A stretch of DNA of 24,937 nt from a virus: IMG/VR virus record IMGVR_UViG_3300014827_000298, positions 1 through 24,937 of that record; one strand, 5' to 3'. Positions within the stretch are counted from its first letter, which is position 1. Each line of letters opens with the position of its first letter. The notes below the pieces were generated by a model that saw only the letters and a list, made by a program, of their open reading frames with translations, was not told the DNA's origin and searched no databases. The translations under genes and the position numbers were made by a program. Positions 3,271-16,850 of this stretch are shown here, piece by piece.

Positions 3271-3933
3271 ATGTCGTTAGATATTTCCTTTGATAGGGTC
3301 TTCAGTGTAGATCAACTAATAAACGAAGAAAAAGGTAAAATTTCAAAACTTGTTGATGATACAAGTGAGAGCGGTCTCTTTTTTCTGTATTCCAAAAATA
3401 ACAACCTATTATATATTGGATGGTCAATTAATATTCGTGGAAATATAAAGGAATATATCATGGGACGAGCAAGCAATGTGAAAAAATTCCGTTCAGACAT
3501 TTACGCAGTTAAAATATTATATTATCATTCCTTTGATGCATTTAGGGATACTCATCAGGATTGTAATGATATTCAATTCTATTTAATTGACAAGCTTAAT
3601 CCTAGATTCAACGGCATAGAGTCAGTTAAAAAAGCTTATATTGATTCGGAGCGGTATATTAACAATCAGTGCAAGGAGTGGGAAGACATGAAAACTAAAA
3701 TGACCCCCGTCGAAGTCCTAGCCTGGTTCGAGAACGGCAAACCTCATCCACTGCGCTTCAAGTTCGACGGAGAAACCATCAAGATAGACCAGGTCCTATC
3801 TGTAACCGAAGAGAAGCTGGCCGGCAATAAGATGCTGTACTTCAGGTGCCAAAGCGAGATTGACGGAGTGCTGAAGCCGTCTGAAATTAAGTTCGAGCTA
3901 AGTACCTGCAAGTGGTTTTTGTGGAAGATGTGA
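3271..3933 (+). CDS. GIY-YIG-like nuclease domain fused to an ~80-residue module
   Basis: The protein has 220 residues. Residues 34-115 follow the GIY-YIG plan: SGLFFLY, LLYIGWSINIRGN with YIG at 48-50 and Arg56, then IQFYLIDKLNPRFN ending in Asn114. Against the UvrC pattern, the catalytic Glu position is Gln102 and the first GIY tyrosine is Phe, so cleavage activity is doubtful. Residues 140-220 are a separate module ending CKWFLWKM that also exists alone at 5606. Met140 (base 3688) has its own AAGGAG site 9 bases upstream and starts MKT like the stand-alone gene, so a short 81-residue product may also be made. Codon use shifts at the joint: the first part is AT-rich, the second clearly richer in GC. 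This points to a fairly recent fusion. The function of the module is unknown. Confidence 0.68.
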   Translation: MSLDISFDRVFSVDQLINEEKGKISKLVDDTSESGLFFLYSKNNNLLYIGWSINIRGNIKEYIMGRASNVKKFRSDIYAVKILYYHSFDAFRDTHQDCNDIQFYLIDKLNPRFNGIESVKKAYIDSERYINNQCKEWEDMKTKMTPVEVLAWFENGKPHPLRFKFDGETIKIDQVLSVTEEKLAGNKMLYFRCQSEIDGVLKPSEIKFELSTCKWFLWKM

Positions 3934-4059: not shown

Positions 4060-5352
4060 ATGATCGATCCAGAAATGGGTTTTACTTCGGATGTAATTAA
4101 GGATCCAAATAGATTCGTAGGTAGAACGGATTTAATAAGGAAATGCGTGAAGGCTCTTAATACTACATTAGGATTAATTGCGGTATATGGTAAAAGAGGT
4201 GTCGGAAAATCTTCTTTGCTTCGCCAAATTCAACAAATTGCACTTGGAGATTATACGCTTGCTAACAGGGCAGGATTGAGTGGCGAGATTCCGAAACGCT
4301 CGCGTAGTTATTTAACTGTCTACTATTCATGTGATTCAATGATTAAGAACGCACAGGATCTCTTAATTCGTCTATGTAACGACCAAGACTCAGAAGATGG
4401 GCTACTTCGACTTGTTCCTGATGATGGCAAAGAAATTGTTGAATTTTCCAGAGCAAAAGAGGTTTCAGCAGGAGCTGATCTTAAAGTTGTAAAATGGGGT
4501 GCAAAAGGGGTTGAAACATCAAAGTACGCTCGTGTTGTCCCAGGAGATGTAGTGCAGACATTCCGAAATCTTGTTAACTCAATTGTCACTCATCAAGTAA
4601 AAGGTAGGATGAAACGTGATGGATTGCTCATAATATTAGATGAATTTGATGTTATAGATAATAAAGAGGGCATTGGTTCTTTGATCAAATCACTGAGCAG
4701 TGACACAGTTAAATTTGCAATCTGCGGTATTGGTCGGGACTTAAATGATTTAGTTTACGATCATGCCTCCGTGGAACGACTATTGGAAGAAGGCTCTATT
4801 CATGTTAGACCGATGGCTTATGATGAGTCTGAACAGGTATTATTTACTGCCGAAGCTTTATTTGATGGCGAAGTTGAGTTCGATAGAGATGTAATAACGG
4901 AAATAGCAACTCTGTCACAAGGCTATCCTTATGTCATTCAACTTTTGGGTAAAGAGTGTGTAAACCACCTTAATATTTCTAATACTACTTACATATCTAA
5001 AGATGTATTTGCAGAAGTCTTAAGGGAAGTGAAAAGTGGAGATGCCTTTCCTACGCTGGAAAGTCAGTATCAAAGAGCTATCGGTTATGCTTCAGGACGT
5101 CAAATCATACTCCACCTACTAGCAGAACAGCCTGAGGACAACACCTTATTTAATGATGAAGTTGGTAGGGTTGTGCTAATGGCAGCTCGGTCCGAGGCAG
5201 AGGAATTGGAAGTTGACCATGTTGACCAACTGTTACCACGACTAGTTGATAAGAAATATGGTCCTGCATTAGTTCGTGTTTCAGAGAGGCCCGGTCTATA
5301 TGAATTTGTTAATCCAGTATTCCGAATATATGTTAGTCTAAGAAACTTCTAA
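4060..5352 (+). CDS. AAA/STAND-type ATPase
   Basis: This is a 430-residue P-loop ATPase. The N-terminal RFVGRTDLIRKC is the sensor-like lead-in typical of Orc1/Cdc6-like and STAND ATPases. Walker A is GKRGVGKS at about 44-51, Walker B is LLIILDEFD at about 189-197, and a following strand, KFAICGIGRD, is in the sensor-1 position. The C-terminal ~130 residues look like winged-helix or helical repeat DNA- or partner-binding segments. ATG 4060 is preferred to the adjacent GTG 4057 because GAGGGGG is better spaced for it. There is no effector domain and no immediate partner gene. In this setting a role in phage or plasmid defence, or in element maintenance, is possible, but family membership is all the sequence shows. 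Confidence 0.78.
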   Translation: MIDPEMGFTSDVIKDPNRFVGRTDLIRKCVKALNTTLGLIAVYGKRGVGKSSLLRQIQQIALGDYTLANRAGLSGEIPKRSRSYLTVYYSCDSMIKNAQDLLIRLCNDQDSEDGLLRLVPDDGKEIVEFSRAKEVSAGADLKVVKWGAKGVETSKYARVVPGDVVQTFRNLVNSIVTHQVKGRMKRDGLLIILDEFDVIDNKEGIGSLIKSLSSDTVKFAICGIGRDLNDLVYDHASVERLLEEGSIHVRPMAYDESEQVLFTAEALFDGEVEFDRDVITEIATLSQGYPYVIQLLGKECVNHLNISNTTYISKDVFAEVLREVKSGDAFPTLESQYQRAIGYASGRQIILHLLAEQPEDNTLFNDEVGRVVLMAARSEAEELEVDHVDQLLPRLVDKKYGPALVRVSERPGLYEFVNPVFRIYVSLRNF

Positions 5353-5563
5353 AAGATAATCCAAAGTGCATAATCCATAGATTGGCAATTTAGTAACTGC
5401 CCATTATCCTATTGCTAAAGGAAGCGTAAACCATAAAAATCCTCTCAACCCCCATCACAGTCCTAGCTCACTTCTAAACCGACGACACACCCACTCCACT
5501 TTACATGGTGGCAGGACTCCATTGCCCCCAAGATTTACTTCTACTAATTTTCCAATCTCTAGA

Positions 5564-5605
5564 TTATAATAAGAACAAACGTTCCTAGAGAGGGCGAATG
5601 TACGT
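5564..5605 (+). promoter_or_regulatory. Promoter and ribosome-binding site of the stand-alone module gene
   Basis: A TATAAT-like hexamer in AGATTATAATAAG (about 5564-5576) is followed by AGAGAGGGCG before the ATG at 5606. The 250 bases between the ATPase gene and this gene otherwise hold nothing recognisable. Confidence 0.4.
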
Positions 5606-5854
5606 ATGAAAACAATTGCGGCACCTGTGGAAATGGTCTGTTGGTTCGATCTGAATGGTAAGCCTCACCCAGTACGATTTCGGCATATGGGGTCTGTTGT
5701 CAGGGTTCAACAGATTATCCACACAGCCGAAGAGAAACTCGCAGGGAATAGCATGAAAGTCTTTCGATGTCAAAGTGAAGTGGATGGGGTAATGAAGGTG
5801 TTTGAGTTGAAGTACGAACTGCAGACCTGTAAGTGGTTATTGTGGAAGATTTAG
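5606..5854 (+). CDS. Stand-alone ~80-residue module, paralogue of the GIY-YIG fusion C-terminus
   Basis: This 82-residue protein is colinear with residues 140-220 of the GIY-YIG fusion. Shared landmarks are GKPHP near residue 18, AEEKLAGN or TEEKLAGN in the middle, FRCQSE and DGV, and the end TCKW(F/L)LWK. The conserved Cys in FRCQSE and in TCKW could form a pair. It looks like a small beta-rich domain. No function is known to me. A third, truncated copy lies at 6992-7030, so the module has been duplicated within 3.5 kb. Confidence 0.75.
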   Translation: MKTIAAPVEMVCWFDLNGKPHPVRFRHMGSVVRVQQIIHTAEEKLAGNSMKVFRCQSEVDGVMKVFELKYELQTCKWLLWKI

Positions 5855-5882
5855 AGTTCCCAACCTTTCCGTACAAGCATAT

Positions 5883-5888
5883 TATAAT
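5883..5888 (+). promoter_or_regulatory. -10-like TATAAT followed closely by a hairpin
   Basis: A perfect TATAAT is followed about 25 bases later by the repeated hairpin at 5912. If active, it would give an RNA of only ~50 bases. No convincing -35 is visible. Confidence 0.3.
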
Positions 5889-5911
5889 AAGGGTTCTCTC
5901 TTAAAATACTT

Positions 5912-5940
5912 TGCCTTCATCGGAAACGATGGGGGTCTTT
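5912..5940 (+). terminator. Repeated hairpin, copy 2
   Basis: The stem CTTCATCG with CGATGGGGG around a GAAA loop is followed by TCTTT. It lies about 100 bases before the decayed XRE copy, mirroring copy 1 in front of the intact XRE gene, so hairpin, promoter and gene appear to have been duplicated together. Confidence 0.6.
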
Positions 5941-5960
5941 ATGTTTGCCCTGACTATATA

Positions 5961-5991
5961 TGACACGTTTTACCCAAGACATGTGTAATAA
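5961..5991 (+). promoter_or_regulatory. Duplicated promoter of the decayed XRE gene
   Basis: The box TGACACGTTTTACCC at 5961-5975 and TAATAA at 5986-5991 match the layout at 2888-2919, followed by the same GAGAGGAGCG ribosome-binding site. Confidence 0.4.
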
Positions 5992-6017
5992 TTAGCGCAA
6001 GAGAGGAGCGAACAAAT

Positions 6018-6104
6018 ATGCTTTTAACCAACGAAACTCTAGGCAAAAGGGTAGCTTGCTTTGTTTAGTATAAAACCGGCTAAACCTCTACCGAAGGTTA
6101 AATA
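6018..6104 (+). pseudogene. Decayed second copy of the small XRE gene
   Basis: The reading frame starts MLLTNETLGKRVACFV and stops after 16 codons. In the same frame, past two stops, YKTG and TSTE continue to align with the region YRKDRQLTQVE of the intact gene at 2944. The upstream promoter, ribosome-binding site and hairpin are also copied. The HTH core is lost, so no functional regulator is expected. Confidence 0.65.
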
Positions 6105-6114
6105 TGAGGAGCAA

Positions 6115-6141
6115 AGAGCCAGGTGCTTATGCCTGGCTCTG
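6115..6141 (-). terminator. Strong hairpin downstream of the Phe-rich peptide gene
   Basis: A perfect 9-bp stem (AGAGCCAGG with CCTGGCTCT) has an 8- to 9-base loop. On the minus strand it lies 15 bases after the stop of the Phe-rich gene and is followed by TTTGCTCCTC, only a partial T tract. It is best read as that gene's terminator. Confidence 0.5.
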
Positions 6142-6155
6142 CATATAAATATAAA

Positions 6156-6263
6156 TTAAAACCGCCGCCGTCGAAAGAAGAATGGATCAAAAAATGGAAA
6201 GAAAAACGGGAAAAAGAACGGGAAAAAGAAATCATCTCTATTAGAACGCCTTAAGCCAACCAT
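6156..6263 (-). CDS. Phe-rich 35-residue micro-protein
   Basis: The minus strand encodes MVGLRRSNRDD, then four blocks of two or three Phe separated by Pro, closing with FFFRRRRF; 15 of 35 residues are Phe. An AAAGGAGG site stands 9 bases before the ATG, as good as any ribosome-binding site here, and a hairpin follows the stop. The two neighbouring minus-strand genes are likewise spore-type micro-proteins with perfect ribosome-binding sites. The opposite strand is also open in the mirrored frame (Lys/Glu-rich), but its ribosome-binding site is poor. Function is unknown; a hydrophobic surface or membrane-coating peptide made during sporulation is a guess. Confidence 0.6.
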   Translation of the reverse strand: MVGLRRSNRDDFFFPFFFPFFFPFFDPFFFRRRRF

Positions 6264-6497
6264 AATAACTATCCTCCTTTCTCGTAGTGAAGATGGAAAA
6301 TGGTAATTTATAGTGTCTGTACAAAGTATGCAGCTTGTTCTGTAAAGGTTCGGCTATAGTGATACTGGACAATCGGGGAATACAGAGATTTTATATGATT
6401 ATGGACAATCAAGGAGTGAGAATGAAATGAATTAGTTAACGCATATGATTGGTTAGACCAGAGCTGAGCCTAGCATGATAATGAATGCGCTTAGTCT

Positions 6498-6518
6498 ACG
6501 GTGGGGGCCTTTTTTGTT
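6498..6518 (+). repeat. Half copy of the GATGGGGGCC-T hairpin arm
   Basis: The sequence ACGGTGGGGGCCTTTTTT matches the 3' arm and T tract of the hairpins at 7132 and 8096. A convincing 5' arm is missing, so termination is doubtful. Confidence 0.4.
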
Positions 6519-6551
6519 TTCAAGGATCATCAAGCTGCCCAGCGACATTCT

Positions 6552-6581
6552 AATAATTAAAGGCTACCACCTTTTTGGATG
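6552..6581 (-). terminator. Terminator of the first YjcZ-like gene
   Basis: On the minus strand AAGGCTATCATCC pairs with GGTGGTAGCCTT around an A-rich loop, then TTAATTATT. It lies about 25 bases after the stop at 6604. Confidence 0.6.
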
Positions 6582-6603
6582 ATAGCCTTATTGGTGGATT
6601 CTT

Positions 6604-6771
6604 TTAGAAAATAACTCCTAAAGCGATAAGGATCAAAATAGCAATTGCGATAATTGCTACACCAACGCCAGGACCAACGCCGCCGGTGACAGGGGGGCAA
6701 CATACAGGGGGACGACAACATGATCCACTCATTCCGCCGTAACCCATTCCACCATAACCCATTCCGAACAT
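6604..6771 (-). CDS. YjcZ-like small sporulation-type membrane peptide
   Basis: The 55-residue protein opens MFGMGYGGMGYGGMSG, has CCRPPVCCPPV at 18-28, and ends in a hydrophobic helix, VAIIAIAILILIALGVIF. This Gly/Tyr head, Cys-rich middle and terminal membrane helix are typical of YjcZ-family micro-proteins of spore formers. The start is fixed by AAGGAGG 9 bases upstream. Its neighbour at 6794 has the same terminal helix (LLIALGIVF compared with LILIALGVIF) and probably arose by duplication. Such peptides are usually made in sporulation; no sporulation promoter was identified with certainty. Confidence 0.78.
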   Translation of the reverse strand: MFGMGYGGMGYGGMSGSCCRPPVCCPPVTGGVGPGVGVAIIAIAILILIALGVIF

Positions 6772-6793
6772 TAGCAAGTTCCTCCTTCCTAAA

Positions 6794-6916
6794 TTAGAAT
6801 ACGATTCCCAGTGCGATAAGCAGAAGAATAATTACGACAACAATTGCGATTCCTTCTCCAAAACGGTTTCTTTCGGGCCGACAACAATCATCACGATCAA
6901 CACCGCCGAATGCCAT
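6794..6916 (-). CDS. Second YjcZ-like membrane peptide
   Basis: The 40-residue protein MAFGGVDRDDCCRPERNRFG ends in the helix IAIVVVIILLLIALGIVF. The start is the ATG 8 bases after AAAGGAGG; an in-frame ATG two codons earlier is too close to that site. The CCRP pair and C-terminal helix match the 55-residue neighbour, 22 bases downstream on the same strand. It probably inserts in a membrane of the developing spore. The assignment rests on overall design, since proteins this short carry few diagnostic residues. Confidence 0.72.
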   Translation of the reverse strand: MAFGGVDRDDCCRPERNRFGEGIAIVVVIILLLIALGIVF

Positions 6917-6991
6917 TTGCATTTCCTCCTTTGCCAAGAGATAGTACATGATATGCACAGGCTTGAACAAATGGAACAATATGGAATGTCT

Positions 6992-7030
6992 GAGTTGAGT
7001 ACCTGCAAGTGGTTTTTGCATAAGATGTAG
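6992..7030 (+). pseudogene. 3' remnant of a third copy of the ~80-residue module
   Basis: The last 13 codons read ELSTCKWFLHKM then stop, against ELSTCKWFLWKM at the end of the GIY-YIG fusion gene, with about 20 consecutive identical bases between them. Nothing upstream in the frame matches the module, and the YjcZ-like gene lies immediately to the left, so this is the scar of a deleted or displaced copy. Confidence 0.7.
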
Positions 7031-7055
7031 AGGGAGAGTTGACCACGCTCTCCCT
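7031..7055 (+). terminator. Hairpin after the module remnant
   Basis: An 8-bp stem AGGGAGAG/CTCTCCCT with a 9-base loop is followed by only a weak T tract. It starts right after the remnant stop codon and was probably the lost gene's terminator. Confidence 0.5.
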
Positions 7056-7131
7056 ATCTATATTAAATGGCCGTCACACTATACAATATGTTTGCTCGTC
7101 CAAAAAGGTTACGAACTTGTCCTGCTCATTT

Positions 7132-7170
7132 GGCTCTCATCGGAAACGGTGGGGGCCTTTTTTTTATTTT
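7132..7170 (+). terminator. Repeated hairpin, copy 3
   Basis: GGCTCTCATCG and CGGTGGGGGCC pair around a GAAA loop, followed by nine T. It lies about 75 bases before the LysM gene start. Confidence 0.65.
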
Positions 7171-7239
7171 TTTAGCAAAAGCACAAGAAACTCCCTTTGG
7201 CATAATTTGGAGTGTAGACGAAAAGGGGGAATTTAGACA

Positions 7240-7383
7240 ATGTACCATCATGTTCGCAAAGGTCAAACCTTGCATCATATAGCTAAACATTACAGGACGC
7301 ACGTTCATCTTCTAATAATTTTAAATCCACACATTCATAATCCACATTTGATTTATCCTGGCCAAAGAATTAGAGTTCGTTAG
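7240..7383 (+). CDS. His-rich single-LysM micro-protein
   Basis: The 47-residue protein is one LysM domain: YHHVRKGQTLHHIAKHYRTH is the first strand-helix, and NPHLIYPGQRIRV the closing helix-strand. LysM domains bind N-acetylglucosamine polymers such as peptidoglycan. AAAGGGGGAA lies 8 bases before the ATG. No signal peptide is present, so it resembles small spore-coat or cortex LysM peptides made in the mother cell. It has 10 histidines, unusual for the family and able to bind metal. A terminator follows 20 bases later. Confidence 0.78.
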   Translation: MYHHVRKGQTLHHIAKHYRTHVHLLIILNPHIHNPHLIYPGQRIRVR

Positions 7384-7400
7384 CCAGTTCTTATAATAGC

Positions 7401-7430
7401 AAAAAGGAGAGCTTAACTGCTCTCCTTTTT
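7401..7430. terminator. Bidirectional terminator between LysM and the 121-residue gene
   Basis: AAAAAGGAGAGC pairs with GCTCTCCTTTTT around TTAACT, with A and T tracts on either side, so it can serve both converging genes. The same core sequence recurs at 9628-9657. Confidence 0.8.
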
Positions 7431-7449
7431 GCGGCTCTCCTAAGTTGGT

Positions 7450-7815
7450 TTAATTAGCCAAACTGAGGATCGGTGTAAATTCACTGTTTAAAACACGCTG
7501 GGCTGCAACGAGATTACCATTTGCGTCTTTACTAAAAACGCTAACTAATGCGCCCTGTCGATTTACATCATACTGAACTTCATACTCGAAAATATTGTTT
7601 GCAAGTGGAATTACTCTGCGTTGGGATGTTCCAGGGTTAACGGTGAGCTGAGCCTGTGCAATTAAAGTTCTTGTGCCATCTAAACGGAATACCCTCAACC
7701 TGACTATTACATTCCCACTGCTTCTATTATTTTCAACCTTAATCCAAACGCTTTTAGCTATTGTCCCAGCATTGTCGAGCTGGTTTTCTAGAGGTCCAGT
7801 TGAGAAAGCAGACAT
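7450..7815 (-). CDS. Conserved 121-residue beta-rich protein, possibly spore-associated
   Basis: The protein is made of alternating beta strands: MSAFSTGPLENQLDNAGTIA, SVWIKVENN, NVIVRLRVFRLDGT, QLTVNPGTSQRRVIPL, FEYEVQYDVNRQGALVSVF, then AAQRVLNSEFTPI. It has no cysteine, membrane helix or signal peptide. The pattern suggests a single small beta-sandwich. Similar proteins, as far as I recall, occur as uncharacterised proteins in spore formers, which fits the neighbouring spore-type micro-genes, but I cannot name a family. The start is supported by GGGAGATGGAG upstream. Confidence 0.6.
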   Translation of the reverse strand: MSAFSTGPLENQLDNAGTIAKSVWIKVENNRSSGNVIVRLRVFRLDGTRTLIAQAQLTVNPGTSQRRVIPLANNIFEYEVQYDVNRQGALVSVFSKDANGNLVAAQRVLNSEFTPILSLAN

Positions 7816-9627: not shown

Positions 9628-9657
9628 GAAAGGAGAGCTTAACTGCTCTCCTTTTTG
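9628..9657. terminator. Terminator at the end of the minus-strand operon
   Basis: GGAGAGC/GCTCTCC around TTAACT with flanking A and T tracts duplicates the core of 7401-7430. The stop codon of the minus-strand gene at 9639 lies in the loop. Confidence 0.7.
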
Positions 9658-9842
9658 CTTGTTTCAATTTTGATTTCGTGGACAGACTTCTCGATCTCCC
9701 GCATCGACTCGGTTAATCTGGATGTTGCCTGCTCTACTCCATTTCGCACAGCCGCCTTGATCATGTAGTAGAAGAGAGCGAGGGAGAGGAACCAGAAGAT
9801 CAGAAAAAGGAGAGTATTGGGGAGGAGAAATGTATCGCGCAT
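9639..9842 (-). CDS. Small membrane protein with helical tail
   Basis: The 67-residue protein MRDTFLLPNTLLFLIFWFLS... has one membrane helix at about 8-28, then a charged amphipathic helix (VEQATSRLTESMREIEKSVH) likely to form a coiled coil. ATG 9842 is chosen because AAAGGATG is correctly spaced; an upstream in-frame ATG lacks such a site. It is the last gene before the terminator in a minus-strand run of mostly membrane or exported proteins. A structural role in the membrane complex of this element is inference. Confidence 0.62.
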   Translation of the reverse strand: MRDTFLLPNTLLFLIFWFLSLALFYYMIKAAVRNGVEQATSRLTESMREIEKSVHEIKIETSKKESS

Positions 9843-9898
9843 TGGATCATCCTTTCGATGGAATTGGCCCACGGTTTTGCGCCGGGGTCAATTTGCGT

Positions 9899-10615
9899 TT
9901 AGTTGAGTACAACTAATTTTGCACTCAGTTCAGAATTTCCTTCTGGATCAGAATAAATCTGGAAACTTGGTGATTCCACTTGGATAATACTCTCATAAGT
10001 GCCAGGTGTGTTAGCTTGCGCAACGATTTGATAAGATCTTTTTCCTTTTGGAGGAATATTGGTAGCTTCGCTTTTCCAATTAAAAGCGCGACCATCCTGG
10101 ACACCGCCACTCATAACATTTACAATGATAAGCCCTTGTTCTAGAAATTTCTTATCACTAAATAACAACTTAATTCCATCAATCGATTTGCTCTCATCGA
10201 GGTTTTCGACATCAACTTTTATTAATACCTTGTCACCTTTTTGCGCTATGGCTGGATCTACGGAACCGGAAAAGTTTACTTTTGGCAGATTCTTGGCTTC
10301 TTCTTCCGCTTTAATCTTGGCATCAGCATCGGCTTTTTCTTTAGACAGAGCGGCTACTCTCGCTGCATCATCTTGTTTGACTTTCGAATTTTCCGTAGCT
10401 ATTTGTTCGGGAGTTTTCTGCGGGGAGGATACTACGGCCGGTGAGGTAACTGGAGCATTCGGCATAAAGATCCCCCCGATAAAAACAACAAAACAAATAG
10501 CGGTACCTATCGACCACTTCTTCATCTTTCCGTTATTCTTAATAGCTGAAAAAATTATCATTGCTAATGATACGAAAAATGCCGCGAACGAAGAGAGGAC
10601 TAGTAACAATTTCAT
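9899..10615 (-). CDS. Two-helix membrane protein with coiled coil and exported beta domain
   Basis: The 238-residue protein has hydrophobic segments at about 4-22 and 33-51, a Lys/Glu/Ala-rich coiled-coil region at about 75-110, then a beta-rich domain (VNFSGSVDPAIAQKGDKVLI through SAKLVVLN) resembling an Ig-like or CARDB-type sandwich that would lie outside the membrane. ATG 10615 is used because AAGGAG is 8 bases upstream; the GTG three codons earlier is too close. It looks like a surface or channel-associated component. Family unknown. Confidence 0.62.
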   Translation of the reverse strand: MKLLLVLSSFAAFFVSLAMIIFSAIKNNGKMKKWSIGTAICFVVFIGGIFMPNAPVTSPAVVSSPQKTPEQIATENSKVKQDDAARVAALSKEKADADAKIKAEEEAKNLPKVNFSGSVDPAIAQKGDKVLIKVDVENLDESKSIDGIKLLFSDKKFLEQGLIIVNVMSGGVQDGRAFNWKSEATNIPPKGKRSYQIVAQANTPGTYESIIQVESPSFQIYSDPEGNSELSAKLVVLN

Positions 10616-10722
10616 TTTTTTCACTCCTTAACAGATTTAATAAAAACACTTTATATGTTCCACGACGGTTAAGGCATTCCCTGCCATGCGACATAATTAA
10701 TGGTTTTGCGACTATTAAGCGG

Positions 10723-10779
10723 ATTGGTCGTTAGTTTAGTCACTTTCTTGATCGTTTACTTGGTCGCCAATACGACCAA
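10723..10779. promoter_or_regulatory. TTGGTCG/CGACCAA repeats upstream of the exported-protein gene
   Basis: A perfect inverted repeat TTGGTCG - 6 bases - CGACCAA lies at 10760-10779, and a third copy, ATTGGTCG, at 10723-10730. They lie 110-165 bases upstream of the minus-strand gene starting at 10615, a plausible operator array; no bound factor is known. Confidence 0.4.
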
Positions 10780-10820
10780 TGTACAAGCTAAAACGCGCAT
10801 GAATCAAAGAAATATTTTCA

Positions 10821-10885
10821 GAAAGAGAGGGTAAGGGGGAGAGGATCAAGGATTCCAAAGGACAAGGAGCGGGGACGGGGGAGAG
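10821..10885 (+). other. Purine-rich tract with repeated G runs
   Basis: About 65 bases are strongly purine-biased on the + strand, with GGG, GGGGG, GGGG and GGGGG runs. It lies just after the stop of the M23 gene on the minus strand. The spacing between runs is long, so a stable quadruplex is uncertain. Confidence 0.35.
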
Positions 10886-10886
10886 A

Positions 10887-11471
10887 TTATTTTAGATAAC
10901 TTGAGGGATCGATGCATGTGCCATTATTCCTTATCTCAAAATGCAAGTGTGGACCAGTGCTATTCCCCGTGCTCCCACAACTCCCTATATTGGTGCCGGA
11001 AATCACCGGATAGCCGACCTTTACTGATATCCCGCTTAAGTGCCCATACAGTGATTCCATGCCTCCTCCGTGGTTTATGATGACCACGTTACCATATATG
11101 TCATTCCACTCTACGCTAGTCACCTCACCTTTCCTAGTGGCTTCCACGATTGTTCCAAGTGGTGCGGCTATATCAATGCCGTGGTGATCCTTACCCTTGA
11201 ATTTCTGAGATATTTCGCCCTTCATTGGCATTCGCCAGCTACCTTGACCGATACCGGCTACTCTATCAGCGGTGTTCTGGAGGGAATCAATTCGAGCATT
11301 CCAACGCTGGATCACCGGCGCGAGATCCTGCATTGTAGTCAGCAACCCCAGCATCACAGCAACCATAAGGACTAGGTTTGCGATCTGCTTTCTTTCGAAC
11401 CCGACTAATATCGAATATCCGACGAATGTGATGACGGCGATAAGTAGGAGATCGGCAATCCACTTGATCAT
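10887..11471 (-). CDS. M23 (LytM-type) peptidase with SpoIIIAC/AD-like membrane segment
   Basis: The 194-residue protein has two hydrophobic helices at 5-24 and 29-55 joined by FERKQ, then a linker, and an M23 domain from about 80. The zinc and catalytic residues are all present: His96 and Asp100 (HHGID), His144 (YGHL), His175 and His177 (HLHFE). M23 enzymes cut peptidoglycan cross-bridges. The N-terminal pair (residues ~18-60) resembles the first half of SpoIIIAD: a helix, a charged Gln-containing turn, a Gly-containing helix, then an amphipathic stretch. In sporulation, SpoIIIA proteins pair with SpoIIQ, a LytM-fold protein, to form a channel. The gene starts 6 bases after the stop of the next small membrane protein. 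The similarity is by eye and not proven. Confidence 0.78.
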   Translation of the reverse strand: MIKWIADLLLIAVITFVGYSILVGFERKQIANLVLMVAVMLGLLTTMQDLAPVIQRWNARIDSLQNTADRVAGIGQGSWRMPMKGEISQKFKGKDHHGIDIAAPLGTIVEATRKGEVTSVEWNDIYGNVVIINHGGGMESLYGHLSGISVKVGYPVISGTNIGSCGSTGNSTGPHLHFEIRNNGTCIDPSSYLK

Positions 11472-11477
11472 GGCACG

Positions 11478-11714
11478 TCACATCGTTCCAACGGTGAAAT
11501 TGAAGAATTTCTCAAGAAGTTGCCAAGCGACCTTGATAACACAAAGGATAGCTGCAATCGTTGTCGCTGTTTTAATAAATGATGAGATTTGCCCCTTGCC
11601 AACAGCAGAAGTAATCATTTCTGCTAACCACGATCCAACTCCTAACATAACTAAGATATCAATAACGAATCCGGGGGAACTAGGCCCGAAGGCGGCGCTT
11701 GCTGCTGTTACCAT
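11478..11714 (-). CDS. Small membrane protein resembling the C-terminal half of SpoIIIAD
   Basis: The 78-residue protein has two membrane helices, ILVMLGVGSWLAEMI and TATTIAAILCVIKVAWQLL, joined by a short loop GKGQISSFIK. B. subtilis SpoIIIAD, as I recall it, has in its C-terminal half IL-x3-G-(I/V)-x-x-(I/L)-AE, then a Gly/Gln loop, an Ile-x-Ser element, an Ala-rich helix and a closing Glu, in the same order. The preceding gene overlaps it by 35 bases, and AAGGAGG lies 9 bases before this ATG. A pore- or ring-forming membrane subunit is a reasonable inference. Confidence 0.6.
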   Translation of the reverse strand: MVTAASAAFGPSSPGFVIDILVMLGVGSWLAEMITSAVGKGQISSFIKTATTIAAILCVIKVAWQLLEKFFNFTVGTM

Positions 11715-12357
11715 TTAAACATTCCTCCTTAATTTGTTTTAGGCTGAATACTTGGAATTCCAGGTTATTAACGTTTGCTTTAGAAATCTTTAACGTAATG
11801 GATTCCACCTTCCCAGTAGTAACAACCCTGATAACAGGAAACCTCTTTGCCAGTGGAACCCACCATTGTTTTAGGTATTCGCCAGAGCTGTAGAAATCGT
11901 TATAGCGTTTGACCTTATCGGCGAAGTCGTGACCACTTTCCGCGATGTCTAATTCGCCATAAAAAAATGACAATGAGTCTGTCCAGGTGCCTTTAATGCA
12001 TATGAGTGTATCGGGGCGGAGAGTTTTATGAGTCACTTCTCGCTCGAAGCTATGCAATCTCATCGAATTTGAGAGGGATGAGCATACCCACGTATAGATC
12101 CAAGATACTCCTAAGACGTGCTCCAGTTGTCCTGGCTTTTTATTGGCATAGTAGTAATATGGTTCGTCGATTGATAATCTGCCACGCTTGATCTTTCCGG
12201 TATCAGTGAGCTTTTTGAGTCTGCGCTGAACAATGCGGAGGACGTTGTCAGGGAAGAGTAGGAGCCTGATCTGATCGGTATTTAAAGCGCCCTGAGATTC
12301 TAAGAGCCTGAATAACTCTCTATCGCGGTGGGAGCATTTTGCGTGGTTGTTCAACAA
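11680..12357 (-). CDS. Replication-relaxation family protein
   Basis: This 225-residue protein starts at TTG, 7 bases after GAGGTG, within the end of the FtsK gene (38-base overlap). Residues 10-60 form a winged helix (RELFRLLESQGALNTDQIRLLLF, then RIVQRRLKKLTDTGKIKR). The rest, with PDTLICIK and FFYGELDIAESGHDFADKVKRY, follows the replication-relaxation family found on plasmids and integrative elements of Gram-positive bacteria. The acidic GELD-type motif and a following Lys recall a nuclease-like fold, not proven to cut. Pairing with an FtsK-type pump is typical of mobile elements. Expected role: starting replication or processing DNA for transfer. Confidence 0.75.
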   Translation of the reverse strand: MLNNHAKCSHRDRELFRLLESQGALNTDQIRLLLFPDNVLRIVQRRLKKLTDTGKIKRGRLSIDEPYYYYANKKPGQLEHVLGVSWIYTWVCSSLSNSMRLHSFEREVTHKTLRPDTLICIKGTWTDSLSFFYGELDIAESGHDFADKVKRYNDFYSSGEYLKQWWVPLAKRFPVIRVVTTGKVESITLKISKANVNNLEFQVFSLKQIKEECLNGNSSKRRLRA

Positions 12358-13447
12358 AGTTCATCACCTCGCATCGGTCAATATCCTTCAAGAGTTGGCG
12401 AGCTTTCTTAACTGGTAAGAACATTCCCTGAGTTTCCAGCTCGGTATCCCACTGATATATTCCCCGGCCAGGGATAGAGGGGATCAAGGAGGCGTTCTCG
12501 TTATCGAGGAGCATACGCGAGTTAATGGCATCGCGAACATGGAAGCACATCGTTCCTGCAAACATGGCCTTGGAATCTCCGAACGACTTCATCATCGTGC
12601 TGGATGGGCGTTGTGTTGCGCAGGGTATACAAAATCCGGCGGCTCTACCAAGTCTAAGAAGCCTATTTAATTCTTCTTGGCAATCCTCATCTTTCATTTC
12701 TGCTAACTCATCTATTACAACAACGTAAAAGGGCATTTCTCCACCTTGATCTAGGTATTCTTTAATATTGACGCAACCTGCAGACTCTAGGATATTAAGG
12801 TTTTCATCCAACTTTTTGTTTAACTCCTTGAACACCTTTATGGCGACTTCTTGTTTGGTTACTAAAAAGACATGTTCTTTGAGGTAAGAGTATTCGAGCT
12901 TTTTAAAGTCAAAGACGACGGTCCGGATATCGGTTTTCTTGTTTAGTAATAGCCCCATAATTAGCCCATGGAGGAAATTGCTTTTCCCCGCCCCTGGGTG
13001 ACCTGCGATAATAAGGTTCGGCATATCTGATAAATCCTTGACGACCTCACCAATAGCTGAGTATCCGAAGTGGATCGGGAGGAAGCCTTTGTGCTGGGAC
13101 GGATCGAAGGAGTATGGGTATTCGCGCTTGATCTCTGTTGTTGATGCTTGCATAGTCACGACTTTCCCGCGTTTTTCGACTTGCACCGTTCCACCCATGG
13201 CATCGGCAAAGAGTTGTTCTTTGGCTTTGAATTCTTTATATCCTAGTCCGGCACCGAGGGAAATGAGGAACTTATACGCATCACCTGAGAGTTTAATCTT
13301 CTTTTCGATCTTAGGCCTTGGTGCCTTGGGCCATATGGCATCGATCACATCCTGGACGGCTGCGTGAGTATCGTTGCCTTTCCGATGCAGAAAGAGATAC
13401 TTAAGTTGATCACGGACCTCCTCAATCACATTCTGTTTCTGACTCAT
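12320..13447 (-). CDS. Soluble FtsK/SpoIIIE-type DNA translocase
   Basis: The 375-residue protein has Walker A as GHPGAGKS (149-156), Walker B as VVVIDELAE (242-250) and the ATQRPSS motif (277-283) of the FtsK/HerA family. LPIHFGYSAIGEVV before Walker A matches the FtsK lead-in, and GRGIYQW occupies the usual loop near 327. No membrane segment precedes the motor and no gamma domain follows, so it is a short motor of the kind used as a coupling protein or pump in mobile elements. AAGGAG lies 10 bases before the ATG. It overlaps the replication-relaxation gene. It would pump double-stranded DNA using ATP. Confidence 0.9.
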   Translation of the reverse strand: MSQKQNVIEEVRDQLKYLFLHRKGNDTHAAVQDVIDAIWPKAPRPKIEKKIKLSGDAYKFLISLGAGLGYKEFKAKEQLFADAMGGTVQVEKRGKVVTMQASTTEIKREYPYSFDPSQHKGFLPIHFGYSAIGEVVKDLSDMPNLIIAGHPGAGKSNFLHGLIMGLLLNKKTDIRTVVFDFKKLEYSYLKEHVFLVTKQEVAIKVFKELNKKLDENLNILESAGCVNIKEYLDQGGEMPFYVVVIDELAEMKDEDCQEELNRLLRLGRAAGFCIPCATQRPSSTMMKSFGDSKAMFAGTMCFHVRDAINSRMLLDNENASLIPSIPGRGIYQWDTELETQGMFLPVKKARQLLKDIDRCEVMNFVEQPRKMLPPR

Positions 13448-13453
13448 GAGATT

Positions 13454-13690
13454 TTAGCTCCTTTCAGCTTTTAGACTGAGCATTAACTCCCTGGCCATCA
13501 GTCGTGCGGCATCCGGTGTAATGGGTCCCACTGGTGGTCGCATGGCACCCATCTCCGTCAATTTCAGTCTGAATCCGTCCCGGAGCATATCAGCCATCTC
13601 GCCTTCTTCCAGGTTTAATCGTTGTACTGCCTGCTGAATGTCCTTGTCTCGCTTGCGAAGTCTTGCCCTTAAGACTAATATGTCGCCCAT
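13454..13690 (-). CDS. Small helical protein, first gene of the FtsK operon
   Basis: The 78-residue protein is predicted to be mostly helical and charged: ARLRKRDKDIQQAVQRLNLE, then ADMLRDGFRLKLTEMG, a Pro-rich turn MRPPVGPITP, and a last helix ARLMARELMLSLK. The internal part GEMADMLRDGFRLKL resembles ribbon-helix-helix or plasmid-type accessory proteins, but this is not secure. An AGGAGG site stands 8 bases before the ATG, and the FtsK gene begins 6 bases after its stop. A DNA-binding accessory to the pump is one possibility. Confidence 0.65.
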   Translation of the reverse strand: MGDILVLRARLRKRDKDIQQAVQRLNLEEGEMADMLRDGFRLKLTEMGAMRPPVGPITPDAARLMARELMLSLKAERS

Positions 13691-13792: not shown

Positions 13793-13815
13793 AAAATAAC
13801 CCGACTTAGTCGGGC
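13793..13815 (-). terminator. Terminator of the first XRE gene
   Basis: CCCGACT and AGTCGGG form a perfect stem around one to three bases, followed on the minus strand by TTATTTTTTTA. The stop codon TAA lies in the hairpin itself, so translation to the end would melt it. Confidence 0.75.
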
Positions 13816-13997
13816 CAGATTTGTTCAATATTGCAATCGAGCGCTTTTGCTATTCGTTTTGCTACTGCTAATGACAAGCTTGGTTTACGATCGTTAATAA
13901 TTCTACTTATCTCAGACTGAGCAATGCCGGTTATCGACTCTAATTCTTTCTGTGTCATTCCTTTTTCCCTTAGGATCTCTCGTATCCTATTATCCAT
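13806..13997 (-). CDS. XRE-family repressor-like protein
   Basis: The 63-residue protein MDNRIREILREKGMTQKELE... is a full Cro/C1-type HTH: MTQKELESITGIAQSEISRI supplies helices 2-3, and SLAVAKRIAKALDCNIEQIW closes the fold. Two in-frame GTG codons lie upstream (up to 14024), but ATG 13997 has GGGTGAAG in reasonable position. A perfect palindrome at 14018-14034 is immediately upstream, the usual place for an autoregulatory operator. The gene probably controls the leftward FtsK operon or itself. Confidence 0.82.
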   Translation of the reverse strand: MDNRIREILREKGMTQKELESITGIAQSEISRIINDRKPSLSLAVAKRIAKALDCNIEQIWPD

Positions 13998-14017
13998 ATT
14001 CTTCACCCAAGGTAAAT

Positions 14018-14034
14018 ATTCCACATTGTGGAAT
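14018..14034. promoter_or_regulatory. Palindromic operator ATTCCAC-ATT-GTGGAAT
   Basis: Perfect 7-base arms surround a 3-base centre, just upstream of the start of the XRE gene at 13997 and downstream of the next XRE stop. It is likely a dimer-binding operator for one of the two repressors. Confidence 0.5.
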
Positions 14035-14044
14035 AAAAATCCTT

Positions 14045-14236
14045 TTAATAGTCTGGAAAAACATACTCCACTGGGCGTCCTAGCCCACGCGCGATCTTAA
14101 TCCCAGTCCCTAGTTCTATTTTTGGCTTCTTGCCGTTAGCTATTCGGCTAATTTCTGGTTGCGGCACCCCAGAACGGAGGGCGAGCTCTTCTTGACTGAT
14201 ATCTAATTCCTTTAAGATTTCTTTGATTCTATTCAC
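14045..14236 (-). CDS. Second XRE-family repressor-like protein
   Basis: The 63-residue product MNRIKEILKELDISQEELAL... is built like its neighbour: ISQEELALRSGVPQPEISRI then ELGTGIKIARGLGRPVEYVF. It is clearly a paralogue of the 13806 gene. The start is taken at GTG 14236, where AGGTG is 6 bases upstream; ATG 14242 is also possible. Two similar repressors in tandem suggest duplication of a control gene, perhaps with different operators. Confidence 0.8.
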   Translation of the reverse strand: MNRIKEILKELDISQEELALRSGVPQPEISRIANGKKPKIELGTGIKIARGLGRPVEYVFPDY

Positions 14237-14330
14237 ACACATCACCTGCGACATTACCCTGTTAATCAACCTATGGTAATTAACAGAAATATTTACCAAA
14301 TTAATAATGTCACATTTAAGGTTATAATCA

Positions 14331-14657: not shown

Positions 14658-14741
14658 TAGGTATTCGACAAATTACCCCTTGTGCAATAAAAGAACGTGT
14701 GTTCTAATAATGAGAGATTAAACGTTCGAGGGGGAATTGCT

Positions 14742-15122
14742 GTGGGGAAGCAAGCAGCGGAAAAAGATCAGTTTTCAAATGAATTTCTAGACGAGGCTAA
14801 TGTGCTGATCGAAATTAAGGTCAGCGATGACGAGGGAGAGACCTGGCATAGGCGCAAGATTAGCATGGTCTCAAGTCTGGACGAGTCGGGGCTGCTGGCG
14901 GGAGAAATATTCCAGTTCAGTGGCGAGAAGTATACGGTGTTAAATGGAGAAGATGGGTTGATGGCGAAGCCGCTAAAGCTGCGAGACGAAAGTAAAAACA
15001 AGGAAGCCCGTTCCCCCGACAAGAGTTACGGACTTCCCACCACAAATACCCCAGCAATAGGGAATATTTGTAATGCAATTATACTTTACTTTTCCCTATT
15101 ACCACAAGGGGCAAAATTATAA
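14742..15122 (+). CDS. Hypothetical protein, 126 residues
   Basis: The start is GTG 14742, six bases after GAGGGGGA. The product has an acidic beta-rich core, ANVLIEIKVSDDEGETWHRRKI, then FQFSGEKYTVLNGEDGLMAKPL, which looks like a small SH3-like or beta-barrel fold. The last ~35 residues are of different character (hydrophobic after a polar linker) and overlap an inverted repeat in the DNA at 15056-15100, so the protein may end less conservatively than it begins. I recognise no family. Confidence 0.55.
   Translation: MGKQAAEKDQFSNEFLDEANVLIEIKVSDDEGETWHRRKISMVSSLDESGLLAGEIFQFSGEKYTVLNGEDGLMAKPLKLRDESKNKEARSPDKSYGLPTTNTPAIGNICNAIILYFSLLPQGAKL
15056..15100. repeat. Long-loop inverted repeat in the 3' end of the hypothetical gene
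   Basis: AATAGGGAA (15056-15064) and TTCCCTATT (15092-15100) are perfect 9-base arms 27 bases apart. It could form an RNA stem or bind a protein; no T tract follows. Confidence 0.4.
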
Positions 15123-15162: not shown

Positions 15163-15384
15163 ATGTTTCAGGTGACGTTAAGATCAGCTAGAGAAATTAA
15201 TGGATACTCTATGGAAGACATTGCGGTAGTTTGTGGTATTTCAGTAGAGGACGTAAAGATGTATGAAGAGGACACAAGGAAGATGCCTTTTGACTTAGCA
15301 AGAAAGGCGAAGCGATTATTCCGCATCAATATTGAGCAAATTTTTGTAGGACTAGAGTCGGAATATACTAAGGATCATAGCTGA
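15163..15384 (+). CDS. Small XRE-like HTH protein
   Basis: The 73-residue protein has a divergent HTH: SAREINGYSMEDIAVVCGIS, then EDVKMYEEDTRKMPFDLARKAKRLFRINIEQIF. AGAAGGGA precedes the ATG. It is the last gene before the attachment-site region; the ACGTGCC array begins within 3 bases of its stop codon. It could be an accessory control or recombination-directionality factor, given the position, but the sequence shows only a DNA-binding fold. Confidence 0.72.
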   Translation: MFQVTLRSAREINGYSMEDIAVVCGISVEDVKMYEEDTRKMPFDLARKAKRLFRINIEQIFVGLESEYTKDHS

Positions 15385-15386
15385 AA

Positions 15387-15433
15387 ACGTGCCTAAAACG
15401 TGCCCAACGCGTCCAGCGTGCCCAATACGTGCC
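15387..15433 (+). repeat. Array of ACGTGCC repeats, left of the attachment site
   Basis: ACGTGCC stands at 15387, 15398 and 15427, GCGTGCC at 15416, and a degraded ACGCGTCC at 15407, all in the same direction at steps of 11, 9, 9 and 11 bases, close to one helical turn. Matching copies exist inside the integrase gene at 15669-15709. This is the design of integrase arm-type binding sites. Confidence 0.6.
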
Positions 15434-15498
15434 TAAAAAATAACCATGATCGGTTAAAATATGCAATACTTTATCACTAAACGGTTAGGCTGAAAACA

Positions 15499-15620: not shown

Positions 15621-16820
15621 TTATTTCGCAACCTTTGAGATGCTTCTCCTGACCAGCTTGTGGCCTTTCGTGCCCGAAAAGACCGCAGTTTTTGTGCCTG
15701 AAACGTGCCCGGCGTTAAACATGTCTCCATTTAAACCGGATATAACATCACCTTGCATGTTGGGGATAAGGTGGCTATATGTATTAAGGGTTATTACTAT
15801 GCTAGAGTGTCCTAATCTCTCCTGCACGACCTTTGGATGTATGCCTTGCATCAATAACCAACTTGCGTGATAGTGCCTTAAGCTATGAAAACTCAGTCTC
15901 TCGTCAAGCTCTAACTCTCTTATTATTCCCTTGAATAGCTTACTTACATTCGATGGGTTAAGAGGGTACCCAAACCTATTAACAAGGAAGTATGTAGGTT
16001 TTTCATTATATTTCTTAGCCTTTAATTGGCGTTCGCTTCTTTGCTTGATGTACTTCTTTAGCATTTCATCAGTCCCTGGTAGGAATGTGACTGATCGTCG
16101 ACTTCCCTTAGTCTTTGGTTGCTTTAGAATGAATTTTCCCTCAAGGTAGTTTAGGCTAAACTTAACATGATAGACTTTATCTTTTATATCCACGGTTGTT
16201 TCATGTAGCCCTAATATTTCACCGAGTCTCATACCAGTGGTACTAGCTATAAAAACGGGCATATAGATGGACATATTACTTTCTGCTTTCTGAAGTATTA
16301 ATTTCATTTCTGTGTCGGTCGGTATTACTATCTCTGTTTTTGCCAGAGAAGGAGCCTTTATGCCATCGCAGGGGTTATACCTAATATACCCCCAAGATAT
16401 CGCATACCTAAAAGCCAAGTGTAAGAACCTATGTACCTTCAAAGCGGTAGTAGAAGACAGTTTCTTTTTAACAATCATCTGAGTATAGAGATTCTGCAGC
16501 TCTACAGGCCTAATTTTTTGAAGCTTTATGTTGCCTAATTCGGGCACAATATGGAGTGCGATAAATTCATCGTATCTTTTGGCCGTGGATCGTTCAACAT
16601 TATGCTCAACGTAGTCATTGTAAAACTTATCCAAGAATCCGGCTATAGTAATCTCCTTATCTTCAACAAACCCCATCTTTTGGCGATACTCGACCATGGC
16701 CTCTTCGGCGTCCTCCTGTGTCCATCCCTTCTCATAAAGATAGATGCGCTCTTTTTTCCCATTCCGCTCAACATAGAAGCGTACTCCGATACCGTTAGCT
16801 TTTGGGACAAATTGAGCCAT
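15621..16820 (-). CDS. int: Tyrosine integrase
   Basis: The 399-residue protein has an N-terminal arm-binding segment (AQFVPKANGIGVRFYVERNGKKERIYLYEKG), a SAM-like core-binding domain (FLDKFYNDYVEHNVERSTAKRYDEFI), and the catalytic domain with Arg in TTGMRLGEIL, HSLRH, and LGHSSIVITLNTYSH carrying the nucleophilic Tyr. It recombines the element's attachment site with tRNA-Trp. ATG 16820 is preferred over GTG 16829, which is too close to GGAAGG. The C-terminal tail contains SGTKTAVFSGTKG, which is encoded by copies of the ACGTGCC repeat, so the gene end doubles as binding sites. The stop is 9 bases from the tRNA fragment. The CI-type repressor gene lies just upstream. Confidence 0.93.
   Translation of the reverse strand: MAQFVPKANGIGVRFYVERNGKKERIYLYEKGWTQEDAEEAMVEYRQKMGFVEDKEITIAGFLDKFYNDYVEHNVERSTAKRYDEFIALHIVPELGNIKLQKIRPVELQNLYTQMIVKKKLSSTTALKVHRFLHLAFRYAISWGYIRYNPCDGIKAPSLAKTEIVIPTDTEMKLILQKAESNMSIYMPVFIASTTGMRLGEILGLHETTVDIKDKVYHVKFSLNYLEGKFILKQPKTKGSRRSVTFLPGTDEMLKKYIKQRSERQLKAKKYNEKPTYFLVNRFGYPLNPSNVSKLFKGIIRELELDERLSFHSLRHYHASWLLMQGIHPKVVQERLGHSSIVITLNTYSHLIPNMQGDVISGLNGDMFNAGHVSGTKTAVFSGTKGHKLVRRSISKVAK
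15668..15709 (+). repeat. ACGTGCC-type repeats, right of the attachment site
   Basis: TCGTGCC (15668), TGTGCC (15693) and ACGTGCC (15703) lie within the last codons of the integrase gene in the same direction as the left array. They make the tRNA-Trp core flanked on both sides by candidate arm sites. Confidence 0.5.
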
Positions 16821-16850
16821 ATTGTTCACGTTCCTTCCGTTTGATGGTGT

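Follow-up and report, generated by a model that had tools for sequence, protein, structure and literature searches.

The window analyzed here, the complete IMG/VR record IMGVR_UViG_3300014827_000298 of 24,937 bases, carries a conserved core of five genes on its minus strand. The first gene product is small and basic, the second is a soluble ATPase of the FtsK/TcpA type, and the third is a replication-relaxation protein (RR); a 78-residue membrane hairpin and a protein that joins another such hairpin to an M23 peptidase complete the set. With roughly even confidence, this core is read as a phage-borne DNA-processing and mobilization/transfer module with SpoIIIAC-like membrane parts. Mobilization or transfer is the best fit to the combination of a nuclease from a relaxase family with a coupling-type motor, membrane hairpins, and an enzyme that hydrolyzes the cell wall. 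What this analysis establishes, and what the reading builds on, are the protein families, the order of the genes, the predicted folds and topology in the membrane, the residues of the active sites, and the phage setting.

The named genes were all located on the minus strand where an earlier note on this DNA had placed them, and its run of FtsK-type, RR, 78-residue, M23, and two further membrane genes agrees with the coordinates and domains found here. The small basic protein of 78 residues (13454..13690) is followed by the ATPase of 375 residues (12320..13447), RR of 225 residues (11680..12357), the hairpin of 78 residues (11478..11714), and the M23 protein of 194 residues (10887..11471); the FtsK and RR genes overlap by 38 bases, and the RR and 78-residue genes by 35 bases. 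The operon is genuine. Purifying selection acts on all four of the core genes compared, as their ratios of nonsynonymous to synonymous substitution rates (dN/dS) against close relatives are approximately 0.04–0.15 where computable, with dS saturated in many of the comparisons. Of the operon that had been proposed for 9639–13690, five genes form the conserved core, to which the last two, variable genes do not belong; that interval covered the gene at 13454–13690 but left it undescribed. In an iterated hidden Markov model search, this first gene gained 16 distinct relatives, most of which end beside the FtsK start; no Pfam match was obtained among ten members tried, and a ribbon-helix-helix fold, resembled by eye, was discarded as Pfam gave it no support.

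RR matches PF13814 at 39.9 bits (6.3e-10), above the 25.3-bit cut-off, and on this profile evidence is a relaxase-family protein, since PF13814 is given as the MobC relaxase superfamily in Table 1 of PMC5357655. The previous observation that no VirB4 or relaxase-type genes are visible therefore divides in two: no VirB4 exceeds its cut-off in the phage records, but the statement on relaxases is wrong, as RR itself lies in a relaxase family. MOBC relaxases are related to the PD-(D/E)XK nuclease superfamily (PMC12857230), and the AlphaFold2 model of RR, built with 23 sequences and having a predicted local distance difference test score of 91.3, combines a winged helix with a PD-(D/E)XK-like alpha-beta core; the fold and catalytic acidic residues by which MOBC relaxases are recognized are thus present in the model. 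Five residues (H80, D116, E135, K148, and Y152) are invariant in all 23 sequences, and in the model D116 lies where strand 2 begins, strand 3 contains E135, and the next helix carries K148 and Y152. The top Foldseek match in the PDB is the nicking endonuclease Nt.BspD6I (E 2.2e-3), followed by other PD-(D/E)XK nucleases.

The comparison with known MOBC proteins points in the same direction. The "replication-relaxation" protein of pAM373, a plasmid typed MOBC, exceeds the PF13814 cut-off at 27.1 bits; its alignment to the RR profile spans 126 profile columns (18.9 bits), preserves the His and Asp, and matches up the strand that bears the Glu. The MOBC relaxases pAD1 TraX, CloDF13 MobC, and that of pAM373 belong to the same Pfam family as RR and likewise have a winged helix followed by a PD-(D/E)XK-type domain and a coupling-type ATPase beside the gene; in contrast, RR is distant from them in sequence, as the score to the pAM373 protein indicates, is borne by a phage, and is accompanied by no origin of transfer (oriT) that could be found. 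Mob02281 was considered as a further relative of RR and set aside, as the available part of the text does not state such a relation.

The motor encoded next to RR belongs to the FtsK/SpoIIIE/HerA superfamily and matches PF01580 at 58.6 bits (7.9e-16). In a phmmer search of PDB sequences, its best matches are "DNA translocase coupling protein" entries (6o1w, 8.7e-16), with FtsK itself second (3.7e-14). These entries are presumably pCW3 TcpA, an assumption made from their name and from PMC12857230, where another structure code appears. TcpA resembles FtsK and may move double-stranded DNA (PMC12857230). The window motor shares its FtsK-like domain with the TcpA-type coupling proteins of pCW3 and of many integrative and conjugative or integrative and mobilizable elements, which include its nearest solved structure by sequence, and as with them a relaxase gene adjoins the motor gene, here at 57 non-redundant FtsK-RR loci. 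However, no transmembrane (TM) segment is predicted in the window motor, which therefore lacks the N-terminal TM domain of TcpA/FtsK coupling ATPases; neither VirB4 nor any other Tcp gene lies nearby, and the membrane hairpins of the cassette are separate genes, which may supply the missing TM domain. A loose parallel to actinomycete FtsK-based elements had also been suggested, and it holds insofar as TraB conjugation likewise depends on a single FtsK-family motor without VirB4. TraB systems are not known to need a relaxase, whereas in the window cassette the motor has a gene of a relaxase family as its fixed neighbor; the module thus resembles a mobilization module of relaxase and coupling ATPase more closely than it does an actinomycete-type single-FtsK system alone.

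The two hairpins link this pair to the membrane. The 78-residue protein has an N-terminal FGPxxPG motif and two TM segments (residues 13–31 and 45–63), and the M23 protein starts with a two-TM hairpin of its own (11301..11471). When the M23-fused hairpin was compared with chromosomal SpoIIIAC by hhalign, it gave 90% and a score of 34.5 over 58 gapless columns, for which known SpoIIIAC-SpoIIIAD comparisons, scoring 39.5 and 29.4, serve as a yardstick. This significant match stands above all controls: 100 of 100 class-preserving column shuffles scored lower (maximum 25.8), reversed profiles reached at most about 20, and ATP-synthase c and TrbC at most 13, the TrbC profile being a weak control of only four sequences, two of them apparently mis-framed. 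The M23-fused hairpin is accordingly SpoIIIAC-like by profile comparison, closest to SpoIIIAC, and not a formal member of PF06686; the window 78-residue and M23 proteins gave no PF06686 match at E ≤ 1 and lie below the 24-bit family cut-off. The profile of the 78-residue hairpin matches the M23-fused hairpin at 90% and SpoIIIAC weakly (23–40%, score 22–24, with shuffle maxima of 24.4 for a small profile and 20.9 for a larger one). As a sibling of the M23-fused hairpin it is probably SpoIIIAC-like too, and its tie to SpoIIIAC is mainly indirect because it is linked through that hairpin. The resemblance to SpoIIIAD that the earlier note had seen by eye consequently survives for the M23-fused hairpin, where it is a resemblance to the SpoIIIAC/AD family as a whole, and only indirectly for the 78-residue protein, but its assignment of the two to the first and second halves of SpoIIIAD has to be abandoned: the former is closest to SpoIIIAC, and the latter gives no signal against the C-terminal half of SpoIIIAD (0.5%).

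Among cassette relatives, direct matches to PF06686 are sub-threshold (L276, 0.0017; L364, 0.0092; L290, 0.014), the best scores being 14–19 bits. A true PF06686 protein (49.8 bits), the only one above the cut-off, is found in the FtsK-RR neighborhood of pMU3262 (NC_017998.1, L006), a 110-kb Thermoanaerobacterium plasmid, which also bears two sets of genes for a type II secretion/type IV pilus-type ATPase, CpaB, and an AAA ATPase. SpoIIIAC and SpoIIIAD share with the window hairpins a two-helix architecture with a short basic loop; the window proteins differ from them in falling below the family cut-off, in the fusion of one hairpin to M23, and in sitting beside FtsK-RR in phage contigs and not in a spoIIIA operon. 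Several other comparisons were discarded. A 99% score of the "MNx" profile was dropped as circular, since that profile had absorbed chromosomal SpoIIIAC sequences; a match of the 78-residue profile to its own reversal was caused by a short palindrome; and a 129-residue protein of locus L168 was rejected as a full SpoIIIAD fusion, its N-terminal part being a signal-like segment. TrbC/VirB2 and ATP-synthase c were rejected as the identity of the hairpins for want of any hhalign signal, and no Pfam match to PF04956 (TrbC/VirB2 pilin) was obtained at E ≤ 10. Two relatives may be recorded in addition: one in the 78-residue class (L280:6719-7078) has a sub-threshold Spore_III_AE match (E 0.0027), and a second hairpin gene copy within the same genome (L169; G207:C1:2567091-2567306) has no FtsK or RR detected in its 13-kb locus.

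The M23 domain (residues 95–189; 10905..11189) matches PF01551 at 6.1e-33, and its active site is complete in the window (H96, D100, H144, H175, and H177); position 96 is Asn in two relatives. The AlphaFold2 model consists of helices 2–24 and 28–71 followed by the M23 fold, and the peptidase domain is predicted to lie outside the membrane by the positive-inside pattern. The SpoIIQ model NF053738 is matched by the M23 domain alone, at 60.1 of the 250 bits needed, and the likening of this protein to SpoIIQ is not upheld as family membership. A role as the phage endolysin was likewise rejected, since a separate amidase and holin are encoded beside the core in L003–L005, on the opposite strand.

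The arrangement is conserved. The FtsK protein is 82–84% identical in three IMG/VR contigs and one Bacillota metagenome-assembled genome, all four of which keep the order FtsK-RR-hairpin-M23, and the same gene order recurs in Bacillota genomes and in prophage and viral contigs. In a co-occurrence survey of 57 non-redundant FtsK-RR loci, gathered by similarity to the window so that the counts describe this group and not a population frequency, a hairpin gene was detected by profile in 40 and an M23 domain in 14. The second hairpin is free-standing, without M23, in L173, L175, L176, and L276, and is therefore a separable unit.

The cassette is carried by temperate phages whose hosts are spore-forming Bacillota. 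Of the 24 viral records, 8 contain portal and terminase genes, close relatives G003 and G004 among them, and the contigs on which close relatives keep the cassette also encode portal, terminase, holin, amidase, and tail proteins. In Bacillus phages and a Paenibacillus phage-plasmid, genes for a small two-TM protein, FtsK, and RR lie between the lysis genes and the integrase/repressor, and hairpin-FtsK-RR sets also occur on small plasmids of 15–16 kb. The window itself has no portal or terminase; the evidence that it is phage DNA comes from its relatives and from genes of its own for a DnaD-like protein, an HNH protein, and an integrase. The left prophage border was sought and could not be placed, and the integrase at 15621–16829 may belong to an element other than the cassette. 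No VirB4-type ATPase (PF12846) exceeded the cut-off in the 24 viral records, which may be fragments, and sub-threshold matches were seen in only two (G004 and G461); pMU3262 has sub-threshold VirB4 pieces in a 647-residue frame. A full conjugation gene set elsewhere in the element was not found on the phage contigs.

In the preferred mobilization/transfer reading, RR would use its winged helix to bind the element at a particular site, where its PD-(D/E)XK-like domain would nick or cut in the manner of MOBC relaxases; a soluble hexamer of the FtsK/TcpA-like protein would pump the processed DNA, the SpoIIIAC-like hairpins would provide the membrane anchor or pore that the motor lacks, and the tethered M23 enzyme would open the peptidoglycan at that site. 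Assembled as a membrane complex, the module could feed a helper secretion system in the manner of mobilizable elements, or act alone on double-stranded DNA, and in either case would move DNA to another cell. The earlier idea of a DNA-transfer machine with borrowed sporulation-channel parts is retained to this extent, given the conserved motor-hairpin-M23 cassette and transfer as the best reading, but is modified in that the carriers are temperate phages. Several points weigh against the reading. The Foldseek matches of RR are modest (E 2e-3 or worse, TM-scores near 0.4), and D137, the third catalytic position of the nuclease motif, varies among RR sequences. Repeat searches of selected intervals turned up no array resembling an oriT, and nothing convincing emerged for iterons; a pilus or adhesin that could form mating pairs is absent. 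Moreover, some of the loci counted in the survey had also gone into the training of the hairpin profiles, and many FtsK-RR loci are without M23 and some without a detected hairpin, so that M23 and the hairpin are not always needed. If the reading is true, temperate phages bring along a relaxase-type and a coupling-type protein of their own together with envelope parts, and a phage genome could also spread through cell contact or mobilization. SpoIIIAC/AD, whose part in the sporulation channel is still poorly defined, would moreover be linked to a DNA-motor module of mobile elements, and the origin of that channel would become testable.

A bolder version, in which the core is a self-sufficient, VirB4-less conjugation machine for double-stranded DNA with a SpoIIIAC-type hairpin pore and sporulation SpoIIIAC/AD were recruited from such mobile modules, is considered unlikely.

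Prophage maintenance, in which FtsK and RR replicate, resolve, or segregate a plasmid-state phage genome with the hairpin as a membrane tether, is possible but doubtful. In PMC9658697, the TrbC/VirB2, Replic_Relax, and FtsK genes that Bacillus pumilus phages carry are interpreted as vestiges of plasmid-prophage segregation; RR is found near ParM in Thrax phages (PMC9703825), and the 15–16 kb plasmids with hairpin-FtsK-RR sets would suit such a function. The Bacillus pumilus sets are like the window in that phages carry a gene for a small membrane protein together with FtsK and Replic_Relax; however, the window hairpins have no profile signal to TrbC/VirB2, and neither M23 nor a SpoIIIAC link is described in the passages of PMC9658697 consulted. 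Maintenance also leaves an exported M23 peptidase with a complete active site without a role, and the motor has a coupling protein as its closest relative of solved structure. At the same time, integrases or serine recombinases are encoded in the window and close relatives, and partition is therefore unnecessary for stable inheritance.

Defense and sporulation-linked roles are less likely than transfer or maintenance. Defense or superinfection exclusion, in which the ATPase and a PD-(D/E)XK nuclease at the membrane would cut incoming DNA, agrees with the position between lysis genes and repressor/integrase, which is typical of accessory genes, with Foldseek likenesses of RR to the nuclease domains of Hachiman HamA and Shedu, and with a defense-candidate pair at 48–1468 in the window; it is nevertheless improbable, as PADLOC has no match for RR, hairpin, or M23 and only weak motor-domain matches for FtsK, PF13814 membership indicates relaxases, and the M23 peptidase is left unexplained. 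Equally hard to credit is a device that works with or jams the host SpoIIIA-SpoIIQ channel, for example for entry of DNA into the forespore: the hairpins are SpoIIIAC-like, one 78-residue-class relative has the Spore_III_AE match given above, and G001, the host genome of a relative, has three PF06686 domains of its own in a row, but the cassette contains no SpoIIIAA, AB, AE–AH, or SpoIIQ orthologue; the promoter scan covered sigma-70 only.

Outside the core, the genes at 9639–10624 are variable. The minus-strand gene at 9899..10624 encodes an accessory membrane protein of 241 residues (phrog_7237, 1.5e-7), and that at 9639..9872, also on the minus strand, encodes a predicted single-TM protein of 77 residues with a counterpart only in L002 (61 residues); in L003–L005 different genes take the place of both. 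Upstream of the core, two small Cro/C1-type regulators are encoded on the minus strand at 13806..14299 (HTH_3, 1.1e-13 and 1.5e-12), and similar regulators precede the core in L002 and L004. A conserved gene of unassigned function (KVSDDEGETWHRRKIS) lies near the cassette and a recombinase at 14697–15122 in the window, L002:5155-5433, and L004:6385-6663. Three copies of a 15-base repeat, AAAACGTGCCTAAAA, at 15384–15438 adjoin the 3' end of the integrase gene and are possible arm-type or att-region sites; as oriT or iterons they were unconvincing, given this position.

Further observations concern accessory content. Beside the cassette of L005, positions 4680–7792 have by eye the look of a diversity-generating retroelement, with a reverse transcriptase (4680–5804), an Avd-like small protein (6134–6502), and a variable-region-type protein (6569–7792). 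At 48–1468 of the window, a DUF488 protein and a second gene match PADLOC PDC-M19A (1.7e-41) and PDC-M19B (1.5e-76). A module of about 80 residues occurs twice in the window (3271–3933 and 5606–5854), one copy being fused to GIY-YIG, and again at L002:13543-13791. Finally, two small Gly-rich proteins with hydrophobic tails, encoded at 6557–7021, resemble by eye small spore or YjcZ-type proteins.

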